From a virus, in the IMG/VR virus record IMGVR_UViG_3300042691_011578, positions 1 through 21,005 of that record: a stretch of 21,005 nucleotides of DNA. One strand, 5' to 3'. Position numbers and translations under genes: made by a program. This document shows positions 3,793 through 6,431 of this stretch, piece by piece (positions within the stretch are counted from its first letter, which is position 1; the number at the start of each line of letters is the position of its first letter). The notes beneath the pieces are model-generated. The model worked only from the letters and a program-made list of their open reading frames with translations, was not told the DNA's origin and made no database searches.

Positions 3793-3807
3793 TTTTTAGA
3801 ACCTAAA
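3787..3807 (-). terminator. Hairpin at the end of the barrel-protein gene
   Basis: TTTAGGTT (3787-3794) and AACCTAAA (3800-3807) form a perfect 8-bp stem with a 5-nt loop. The stem includes the final codons and the TAA stop (3798-3796) of the 622-aa gene. No U-tract follows on the minus strand, so it may protect the 3' end or terminate weakly rather than act as a standard intrinsic terminator. Confidence 0.4.
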
Positions 3808-5664
3808 CTTGACTTTAGCAGCAACAGAATTATTAGTGACTCCATTATTCACACCGTGAGATGCTTCAACAATTAACATCTCTTTATAGTCTACTTCAGC
3901 AGCAACTCCATAAGAATTATCAGTTCCATAAGCACCTTCTACACTGACACCAAACAGATCCTTCTTCTTACCACCAAAACGAGTTTCAAGTTTGAGACCC
4001 GCTTCACCAATATGAGTGGTTTGATTAAACTCACCAACACTTCTTGCAGACTGAATAGACCCAGTTTCAGTATAAGCATTTCTGTTTACACTCTGAACAG
4101 TATATCCAACAAATGGTTTTACTGCCTTGTGAAGATGCCAGTATAAACGATTAGAAACCCACCACTCATAACCAGTTGTTTCACCAGCATTATTAAAGAC
4201 ACCTTCTACATTTCTATTGTACTTATAATTACTGTTTGCAATCGCAGCATTAGTATTCAGGGTTAAAGTATTACCTCTCAATTCACTGAATACACCGAAG
4301 TGGTCTTTATTCTGTTGTGTGCTTGAGTCAACACCATTGAGGTTTACGTTGACTCTATTATACTGACCACCAAGAGTCCAACCTTTGGTTACATCAAACT
4401 CAAAACCACCACCGAAAATCTTGGAATCAGCAGTGTATCCATCAGCATTATAGGACTGAACGAATCTGTTGTTCTCAAATACTCTTAATCTTTGCTTACC
4501 TGAAGTTGGTTCGTGATTCAGAAGTCCATTGATACCATCATTGATTCCATCAAGAGTTTCTAGTTGATCTACTCTACCAAAGTAATCTCTGTAAGTGTTA
4601 GCAACTTCAACAGTTGCAGCACCAAATGTAACTTGAGTAGCAGCACCGTTGGTGAATACTCTTGTGTACACAGGTGTAGTTGTAGTTGTGGTAGTTGTAT
4701 GTGCATTGATTTTCTGTCTTCCACCACTTTCAGATGCAGTGTGATTTACTGCAGAAACAGGAACAACACTAAAAGTTCTAGTTCTTACCCAATCAGATAC
4801 AGTTGCTTGAGTTATAACAGAAGTTCCAGCATTGTCGTCAGTTGTTACTGTAGTTACAACTGGAGTTCCATTTGTTGTGGTAGTAGAATTATCGGACCAA
4901 GTTGTAACTGTTACTGGAGTTGTTGTGGTAGTAACTGTGGTTGTAGGAATCGTAATAACTTCTGTATCGGTGTAATGGGTTTCAGTTTGATTTCCATTCG
5001 CATCAGTTCCCATTATATGACGATGAGGATTATTTGTTACATTTCTGGTTCCAGCAGTTGTGCTAGTCGTAACAATATTCGCACCAGCAGCAGTTGATAC
5101 TACTGTTGGTGCTGGTGGAGGTGTTCCACCAGTTTCGTAAATATCAAGAATACCATTCAGGTTAGCGTCACCAGAAAGAAGACCAGCAGAAAGAGTTACT
5201 GTACCTGTGCGAATAACTTGCGATGATGGATCCCAGTCCATCGTTGGTTGTGCGATTGGGTTATAAGTAAACTGATAATCTCCAGCAGACAAGCTGGTAA
5301 ATGTAACACCCTGCCAAGTGTAACTATCCATTCCATATAATCTGGCAGGATCCCCATAAGGAATAAGATTATTTCCATCAGACTGGAAATAGTTTGTACC
5401 AGGAATTAATCCGTCTGGTGTTGTATTTTGAAGAAGTGTCCAGTTGACGGTTGTTGGTGTAAATGTGGTTCCGTTGACGCCCTGTAAAGTCATAGAACCT
5501 TCTGTGAAGGTAGTTCCCGAGTGCCAAGAACCATACCAAAATGTAACTGTTCCGCCGCTGGCACCAACATATCCGATAGAGTTGGTGTGAGACAATGCTG
5601 CTGTTGGCACTCCAAGAAGAAGCGCAGACGCTGCAGCCAGCGCCTTTTGCGTATTGGTGGACAT
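3796..5664 (-). CDS. Secreted Thr-rich protein with EF-hand-like loop and C-terminal beta-barrel
   Basis: In this 622-residue protein, residues 1-25 form a Sec signal peptide (Ala/Leu core, TAALS). A beta-rich domain with many Gly, Thr and Trp follows (26-160), then a perfect EF-hand/dockerin-type calcium loop at 166-177 (D166, N168, N170, I172, D174, E177), a Pro spacer (TPPPAPT), and a long Thr/Val-rich linker (about 188-335) with runs such as TTTVTTTTT. From about 390 the chain shows alternating hydrophobic/polar strands and ends in KFRF. A terminal aromatic after such strands is the classic outer-membrane beta-barrel/autotransporter signature. It therefore may be exported and inserted in the host outer membrane, or be a surface or virion adhesin. 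The leader (5665-5767) carries unusual alternative hairpins; no Shine-Dalgarno is seen before the ATG. Confidence 0.65.
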   Translation of the reverse strand: MSTNTQKALAAASALLLGVPTAALSHTNSIGYVGASGGTVTFWYGSWHSGTTFTEGSMTLQGVNGTTFTPTTVNWTLLQNTTPDGLIPGTNYFQSDGNNLIPYGDPARLYGMDSYTWQGVTFTSLSAGDYQFTYNPIAQPTMDWDPSSQVIRTGTVTLSAGLLSGDANLNGILDIYETGGTPPPAPTVVSTAAGANIVTTSTTAGTRNVTNNPHRHIMGTDANGNQTETHYTDTEVITIPTTTVTTTTTPVTVTTWSDNSTTTTNGTPVVTTVTTDDNAGTSVITQATVSDWVRTRTFSVVPVSAVNHTASESGGRQKINAHTTTTTTTTPVYTRVFTNGAATQVTFGAATVEVANTYRDYFGRVDQLETLDGINDGINGLLNHEPTSGKQRLRVFENNRFVQSYNADGYTADSKIFGGGFEFDVTKGWTLGGQYNRVNVNLNGVDSSTQQNKDHFGVFSELRGNTLTLNTNAAIANSNYKYNRNVEGVFNNAGETTGYEWWVSNRLYWHLHKAVKPFVGYTVQSVNRNAYTETGSIQSARSVGEFNQTTHIGEAGLKLETRFGGKKKDLFGVSVEGAYGTDNSYGVAAEVDYKEMLIVEASHGVNNGVTNNSVAAKVKFRF

Positions 5665-5670
5665 AAAAAT

Positions 5671-5758
5671 ACAGTGAGTTGGTGGTTTGAGATTCTCTAG
5701 AACCTACAAATCACAACTCACTGTGGTGGTGGAGTTGTTTTCAACTCAATGGTTGAAA
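5671..5758 (-). promoter_or_regulatory. Attenuator-like leader with alternative hairpins
   Basis: Reading the minus strand 5'-3', four arms alternate between GAGTTG (5747-5742), CAACTC (5737-5732), GAGTTG (5719-5714) and CAACTC (5681-5676). Arm 1 pairs with 2 (6 bp, loop AAAA). Arm 2 pairs with 3 (7 bp, 12-nt loop). Arm 3 pairs with 4 as an 11-bp perfect stem (5724-5714 with 5681-5671, 32-nt loop) followed by AUUUUU and then the AUG at 5664. UUUCAAC (5758-5752) with GUUGAAA (5745-5739) is a further alternative 5' hairpin. The exclusive pairings resemble a transcription attenuator; the control signal is unknown. Confidence 0.5.
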
Positions 5759-5759
5759 C

Positions 5760-5767
5760 TATTTATC
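5760..5767 (-). promoter_or_regulatory. Late promoter octamer GATAAATA
   Basis: Seven of eight bases match the T4 late consensus TATAAATA. It contains the TAA stop of the lysozyme gene (5765-5763) and lies about 95 nt upstream of the barrel-protein AUG, so transcripts from it would begin just before or within the alternative hairpins. Confidence 0.5.
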
Positions 5768-6431
5768 CTTTTTTCCAAGCTTCACCTTCTGCTTTTCTTC
5801 TGCGAGCAAGTCCTGCTTCTACATTTGAACCAGGATTACGATAAAGATAGAGAGCATCAGGAACTAAATCCCACTCCTTATTCTTCAGGCGTTTAGTAAT
5901 AGTATTAAAGTTAGCACCGTTGTAAAAACCGGCACCAAGATTATAAGCAAAGCTGAGCAGAGCTCCTCTTTTTCCATCTGACATTTCACTCCAAAAGGGA
6001 ATTTTTCTTAAAGCAGGTAAAAACTCATTCTTGCACTGTTCAATGAGAAGTGCATCTGCTTCTGCCTGTGTGAGAGTATCACCAAGTTTAAATGCTGATC
6101 CATCCTTCTTGCGGGTAGAGCCCCAACCAATTGTGATTGGAAGTCCACCAGTCAAAGGGTCAGGATATGCCTTTAGATGGCATCCTTCAAACTCTTTTAT
6201 CAACTTGATGCCCATTTGTGGGACATCATCACCACCTGTTACAGGAGCTGCAGCAGCGGCAGGGGCTGATGCAGCACTAGTCTTTTTTCCTCTAAAAATC
6301 TCCGCCCAATCAACATTATCTTCTAGATACTTGACTGGTAGGTTATCTTCTAACCATTGAACTGCTTTAACGTGATTTGGATTTCTTTCATCATAGAACT
6401 GAAAGAAATTGTGTAGATCAACTCTTGCCAT
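5763..6431 (-). CDS. Endolysin: GH24 lysozyme with N-terminal shared module
   Basis: This is a 222-residue protein. Residues 1-47 are a module (LHNFFQFYDERNPNH, AVQWLEDNLP, DWAEIFRG) shared with the C39-like peptidase two genes upstream. An Ala/Pro linker (about 50-70) follows, then a glycoside hydrolase 24 (T4/P22-type) domain: IKEFEG with catalytic Glu82, Asp91 in AYPD, Thr100 in TIGWG, and the C-terminal EAGLARRRKAEGEAW typical of the family. It should cut the glycan strands of peptidoglycan for lysis. There is no signal peptide, so it needs a holin or another export route. A GGAGG five bases before ATG 6431 supports the start, which overlaps the preceding 45-aa gene by 14 nt. The shared module may be a targeting or binding domain (inference). 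Confidence 0.88.
   Translation of the reverse strand: MARVDLHNFFQFYDERNPNHVKAVQWLEDNLPVKYLEDNVDWAEIFRGKKTSAASAPAAAAAPVTGGDDVPQMGIKLIKEFEGCHLKAYPDPLTGGLPITIGWGSTRKKDGSAFKLGDTLTQAEADALLIEQCKNEFLPALRKIPFWSEMSDGKRGALLSFAYNLGAGFYNGANFNTITKRLKNKEWDLVPDALYLYRNPGSNVEAGLARRRKAEGEAWKKG
6337..6366. repeat. 30-bp direct repeat, copy 1 (in lysozyme gene)
   Basis: Thirty bases here are identical to 7110-7139. Both copies encode the same part (AVQWLEDNLP) of the shared N-terminal module in the same codon frame. The surrounding roughly 85 bp are also similar but with many third-position changes. Confidence 0.9.

Follow-up and report, generated by a model that had tools for sequence, protein, structure and literature searches.

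An RNA leader with two hairpins precedes the gene for an autotransporter-like protein in a freshwater cyanophage, and its most likely role is to restrain synthesis of this phage surface protein, not to switch off transcription. The leader lies on the minus strand of a 21-kb virus record (21,005 nucleotides, referred to as the window) from a freshwater T4-like cyanophage; the closest annotated relatives of this phage are DSL-LC02 and DSL-LC03, which are metagenome-assembled members of the Kyanoviridae (PMC10611076). Together with its relatives it represents two apparently undescribed structured RNA leaders, which are common in freshwater cyanophage contigs and were seen solely upstream of a single family of autotransporter-like phage genes. 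It is likely that the leader exerts translational control of some kind. The specific mechanism that we tentatively favour is a timed one, in which the leader would fold during transcription such that the start is open in young RNA and shut in the finished molecule.

The leader and its autotransporter-like gene

The features of this region, in the direction of transcription, are listed below.

5763..6431, minus strand: phage lysozyme gene (Phage_lysozyme, PF00959), upstream of the leader, with its stop inside the late promoter motif
5760..5767, minus strand: late promoter motif NATAAATA (GATAAATA), containing the lysozyme stop TAA (5765-5763)
5739..5758, minus strand: helix P0, formed by arm 0 TTTCAAC (5758-5752) with GTTGAAA (5745-5739), in competition with hairpin 1
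5732..5747, minus strand: hairpin 1 (arms 1:2), 6 bp with loop AAAA, the loop being variable in relatives
5747-5742, minus strand: arm 1, GAGTTG
5737-5732, minus strand: arm 2, CAACTC
5714..5737, minus strand: alternative pairing 2:3, CAACTC (5737-5732) with GAGTTG (5719-5714), predicted transient partner of the 5' arm of the terminal stem
5671..5724, minus strand: terminal hairpin 2 (arms 3:4), an outer stem of 11 bp enclosing inner helices, with 6 nt between the hairpin base and the AUG
5724-5714 with 5681-5671, minus strand: perfect 11-bp outer stem
5719-5714, minus strand: arm 3, GAGTTG
5681-5676, minus strand: arm 4, CAACTC
5665..5670, minus strand: AUUUUU between stem and AUG, without a Shine-Dalgarno (SD) sequence
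5664-5662, minus strand: start codon ATG
3796..5664, minus strand: autotransporter-like gene (622 aa) with a signal-peptide-like N-terminus (by eye), a passenger, a helix (367-382) and, at the C-terminus, a barrel that ends in KFRF

The four alternating arms, the 11-bp stem, the AUUUUU tail and the adjoining AUG that made up the original prediction are all present at these positions, as is the late promoter motif with the lysozyme stop inside it (ATAAATA at 5766-5760 encloses TAA). The motif NATAAATA is that reported for S-PM2 (PMC2984593). A fifth arm, arm 0, had been overlooked, and its partner overlaps arm 1. We take transcription to start at A5754 (minus strand), a position predicted from the T4 spacing rule; arm 0 is the only arm upstream of it, and helix P0 is possible only in RNA initiated further upstream. 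Among 20,000 dinucleotide shuffles, 8 contained four ordered hexamers of the form w, w', w, w' and 50 contained a perfect 11-bp inverted repeat. The folding calculation proposed with the original prediction gave -32.2 kcal/mol for the 108-nt leader (z = -4.9), and none of 200 shuffles was equally stable. All folding energies are ViennaRNA values at 37 C, and the folds of incomplete RNA come from prefix folding, which is not equivalent to a kinetic simulation. The minimum-energy fold holds 1:2 and 3:4 together, so the mutual exclusion that had been claimed for all three pairings is limited to neighbours, with 2:3 excluding 1:2 on one side and 3:4 on the other.

The 622-aa product gave no sequence match in Pfam, PHROG or PDB. 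Its AlphaFold model (mean pLDDT 79.7, pTM 0.49) consists of a passenger, an alpha-helix (367-382) and a C-terminal barrel. Among solved structures, the translocator of the NalP autotransporter matches the model best (1uyn; E 1.1e-7, TM 0.72 by target length). The best viral matches are uncultured-phage proteins named "autotransporter beta-domain", and nearly all full-length homologues terminate in KFRF or KFKF. On this evidence the product is predicted to be autotransporter-like with a NalP-type barrel; the beta-barrel assignment made from the DNA alone is retained for the C-terminal part of the model and refined in this sense. The predicted structure has the layout of a type V autotransporter, namely a passenger, a helix and a C-terminal translocator barrel ending in F. 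A SegE-like GIY-YIG homing endonuclease is encoded at 7794-7345 (minus strand), not far upstream of the lysis genes; its best PHROG is labelled NAD synthetase, a family that is apparently misnamed.

Two leader classes and their conservation

IMG/VR contigs and two phage records yielded 127 distinct leaders, nearly all of them from metagenomic contigs, each adjoining an ATG that is followed by homologous signal-peptide codons. TAAATA is found upstream of the leader across the whole set, its presence having been a condition of selection. The four-arm design with the 11-bp stem is seen again in 31 distinct leaders (type A, window-like), and the other 96 were assigned to type B, which is heterogeneous, measures approximately 100-150 nt, is unrelated in sequence to type A and includes the leader of DSL-LC02. 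Both types nevertheless share one design, in which a late promoter is followed by a 5' hairpin and by a long terminal hairpin that closes the start codon, the base of this hairpin lying 0-6 nt from the AUG. The leader behind the late motif is 95 nt in the window and 138 nt in DSL-LC02, compared with 9-51 nt for most genes behind the motif.

Each record, searched whole, carries one copy of one leader type on the sense strand, and a repeated phage-wide element was rejected on this basis. The leader alone gave no convincing match to annotated phages other than DSL-LC02 (type B), and a scan of bacterial and archaeal genomes with two short patterns confirmed no relative. Rfam at the gathering threshold returned only tRNAs from the whole window, and relaxed searches with seven type B loci and the leader returned only tRNAs and sub-threshold chance matches. 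The passengers are swapped among homologues (the window gene, L066, L068, L072, L075, L084, L115 and L132), while the leader with the signal peptide, and the C-terminal barrel, are constant; at least four kinds of passenger occur (HTNSIGYVG, DTISGTDFEGG, LQGNYVKIG/LQGNCVKIG and DNVFVIDVGY), several of them behind both leader types. In L113 a type B leader is cut inside the terminal hairpin and fused to passenger sequence that has no start codon or signal peptide, which may represent a recombinant, a deletion or an assembly artefact.

Covariation was assessed in 19 distinct type A leaders and 48 type B leaders. In type A, 98% of the outer terminal stem is paired; double changes (AU to CG, GC to AU) affect C5723-G5672 and A5722-T5673 among its pairs, and one more lies in the inner helix. 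Hairpin 1 and pairing 2:3 are each 100% paired with G-U changes only, 2:3 showing zero double changes, so covariation neither confirms nor refutes them; for P0, 99.3% of cells are paired, with zero compensatory changes. The covariation anticipated for all four arms is therefore present in part: arms 2 and 3 stay complementary and 3:4 is compensatory, but hairpin 1 and 2:3 contribute none, and together with P0 they leave the type A intermediate unproven by this measure. For type B the RNAalifold consensus on the raw alignment was poor, and the leaders were consequently realigned with a covariance model. In the resulting alignment 96% of cells pair in the terminal structure, and double changes occur at 17 of 40 pairs compared with 4.8 in shuffles, a figure somewhat favoured by an alignment that was fitted to the structure. 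Just before the type B stem, 43 of 48 leaders conserve the sequence ACAUA, for which UAUGU over the start codon is a possible pairing partner. The strongly diverged leaders L318, L319, L357, L234 and L400 retain a terminal hairpin beside the AUG and would extend the covariance models.

Termination and upstream signals

The original prediction interpreted the leader as a transcription attenuator, with 3:4 as intrinsic terminator and 2:3 as antiterminator. As in trp-type attenuators, the arms are ordered and neighbouring pairings are mutually exclusive; a stable stem is followed by five U, and 2:3, which competes with both 1:2 and 3:4, is strongly favoured before arm 4 is made when arm 0 is present. 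The tail, however, scores 2.5, against 5.0 and 4.8 for the two canonical terminator-like sites of the window:

9040-9022, minus strand: canonical terminator-like site, with a late promoter motif ATAAATA within about 50 nt after it
7877-7860, minus strand: canonical terminator-like site, with a late promoter motif ATAAATA within about 50 nt after it

These two sites have stems of 7-8 bp, loops of 3-4 nt and runs of T6-T7. The leader hairpin, which spans 54 nt and has an A preceding the U run, looks unlike them. The U run is interrupted in the relatives L248 and L325 (ATCTTCATG, ATTTCCATG), the long-span stem touches the AUG, and type B buries the SD and the start codon instead. In contrast to trp-type attenuators there is no leader peptide, the U tract is poor and the stem lies beside the AUG. 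The absence of a leader peptide had been recognised from the start, and it extends to the listed open reading frames (at least 50 aa) and, by eye, to any ATG within the leader; no known ligand site, or other signal, was found in the leader either, although a protein might conceivably act as the sensor. Judged by its sequence, 3:4 does not appear to be an intrinsic terminator with a conserved U tract, and we consider attenuation improbable. The pairs of terminator-like hairpin and late motif elsewhere in the window span 9040-9008 and 7877-7817 (minus strand), and ATAAATA has seven matches in the window, all on the minus strand.

A ribosome at the lysozyme stop had been suggested as a possible signal. 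It is unlikely to serve as one, because the upstream gene differs in L026, L028, L051 and L200 with the leader kept, and because a ribosome at this stop is estimated to leave about 5 nt uncovered before arm 1. The suggestion that read-through and promoter-initiated transcripts could enter the leader differently fared better. In prefix folding of the window RNA before arm 4, the probability of 2:3 is 0.54 when the RNA begins at the predicted +1 and 0.95 when it includes arm 0, since arm 0 pairs with 5745-5739 and thereby removes arm 1.

An arrangement of the kind known from T4, in which the hairpin would silence early read-through RNA and late RNA would start inside the hairpin and escape, is documented for I-TevI, segB and mobE, where a hairpin sequesters the ribosome binding site (RBS) in early RNA; soc and e are likewise reported to have a sequestered RBS (PMC2988022). 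The likeness extends to a T4-like phage, a late motif and translational control by a stable hairpin over the initiation region, and such a structure is indeed found here. In the T4 family the late promoter is placed such that late RNA is free of the inhibitory structure (PMC2988022), whereas the only NATAAATA near the present gene sits upstream of all the stem arms, with no second motif in the leader, so that late RNA carries both complete hairpins. The internal-promoter scheme was rejected for this reason, and it is highly improbable that the leader operates in this way. The seg43(25) gene of Aeromonas phage 25 is similar in having a very stable hairpin directly upstream of the RBS and a start just past the stem base; it is a homing endonuclease gene, and a second hairpin or alternative pairing is not described for it in the available portion of the report (PMC2988022).

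Occlusion of the start and competing folds

At 15.1 kcal/mol, the start region of the window leader is the costliest to open among 24 window genes (chosen open reading frames, mean 7.8), and that of DSL-LC02, at 21.2 kcal/mol, is the costliest among 72 selected annotated genes in the first 100 kb of that phage (mean 8.1, sd 4.0). The cost is high in all the leaders measured, with means of 12.2 in 19 type A and 20.8 in 70 type B leaders. The type B terminal hairpin also buries the SD. In type A an SD is found neither between stem and AUG nor upstream of the stem, and several other genes of the window phage likewise have none. The occluded start, the weak U tail, the potential ACAUA-UAUGU pairing and the length of the leader together favour translational control. 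T4 genes 38 and 25 also have a hairpin just before the AUG, but theirs brings a distant SD to the start and so aids translation, whereas the type A stem has no SD upstream (PMC3014915).

Both leader types contain competing folds. In type A, 2:3 is populated before arm 4 is made; in the finished RNA 3:4 always wins and 2:3 falls to approximately 1e-7, so the competing arms are physically real, with 2:3 occupied only until arm 4 emerges. Across the 19 type A leaders, 2:3 in the complete RNA from +1 costs 5-13 kcal/mol. In type B a local hairpin, CCGAGUC-CUCUGN-GACUUGG, can form within the 5' arm of the terminal stem; 96% of its cells are paired, although the excess over shuffles is modest. Such local folding of the 5' arm is predicted for 87 of 96 type B leaders when the last 30 nt are held open. 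The CC bases used by the local hairpin only are kept in 46 and 42 of 48 leaders among variable neighbours, and bases 68-69 are retained where their long-stem partners mismatch. Both folds are preserved despite different sequence in L260 and L044 (UCACG..CGUGA, CACG..CGUG) and in L318, which has GUAC around a UUCG loop, and L319, L059 and L082 also keep both. A search for a local hairpin in the 5' arm of type A found none; the counterpart there is arm 2, as the earlier partner of the same 5' arm.

The terminal hairpin might instead reduce initiation on all transcripts alike, in which case the alternative pairings would be by-products and not parts of a switch. The finished hairpin dominates at equilibrium in the complete RNA of every leader (2:3 no more than 3e-4) and the type A alternative pairing lacks covariation, both of which suit such a constant brake; the type B local hairpin, however, survives large sequence changes, and bases exclusive to it are conserved, which makes the explanation unlikely. 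Somewhat less likely again is an element for RNA processing or stability, either an RNase III-like site or a 5' protector, in which a cut within the 3' arm would release the start codon. RNase III-like cleavage frees the start codon in some T7 and lambda leaders. Both types form a near-continuous helix of about 20 bp with small internal loops, and in RNA starting 14 nt before the AUG the opening cost falls from 12.2 to 0.7 (type A) and from 20.8 to 5.5 (type B) kcal/mol; the conserved alternative hairpin of type B and the ACAUA before its stem would be left unexplained. We rank attenuation below both.

In the timed brake that we favour, late transcription would start just upstream of hairpin 1. 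Until the 3' arm is made, the 5' arm of the terminal hairpin would be occupied elsewhere, by arm 2 in type A and in type B by the local hairpin that it forms itself, leaving the start region unstructured. As the 3' arm emerges, the far more stable terminal hairpin would form and close the start-codon region; in type B this would bury the SD, and the AUG could be covered by pairing of ACAUA with UAUGU. The autotransporter would then be translated little from finished RNA and preferentially from young transcripts, or where conditions or factors hold the earlier fold. We infer that ribosomes use this early window, and that the purpose may be to cap or time a surface protein encoded beside the lysis genes. 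We count in favour of this timed brake the double changes in the terminal stem, the occluded starts, the type B local hairpin, the 2:3 pairing before arm 4, the long leader behind the late motif, the single sense-strand copy per record and the precedent of MS2. Against it we count the type A intermediate without covariation, the modest excess of the type B local hairpin and the type A start without an SD.

Along with the T4-family hairpins that hide a start region, the MS2 maturation-gene leader comes closest to the present leaders in its mode of action. The MS2 maturation gene has a documented open fold in nascent RNA, where a shorter hairpin leaves the start accessible that the finished fold hides (PMC6071253). 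Here an occluding finished fold and an open nascent alternative are likewise predicted, in a system that differs from an RNA phage without a late promoter. Co-transcriptional folding has also been proposed to gate translation of the Helicobacter pylori aapA3 toxin mRNA, although its early metastable hairpins close the SD, whereas the early fold of the present leaders would leave the start open (PMC6733600). A bolder extension, which we regard as rather doubtful, is that two sequence-unrelated leader classes converged on, or were exchanged for, one folding race that admits ribosomes only to young autotransporter mRNA, the type A race differing between read-through and promoter-made RNA through arm 0.

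If the timed brake holds, it would show a T4-like phage adjusting a single late surface protein, encoded next to its lysis genes, with no dedicated regulator. With its two states and its natural covariation, type B in particular is an RNA in which co-transcriptional control of translation could be tested directly for a DNA phage.
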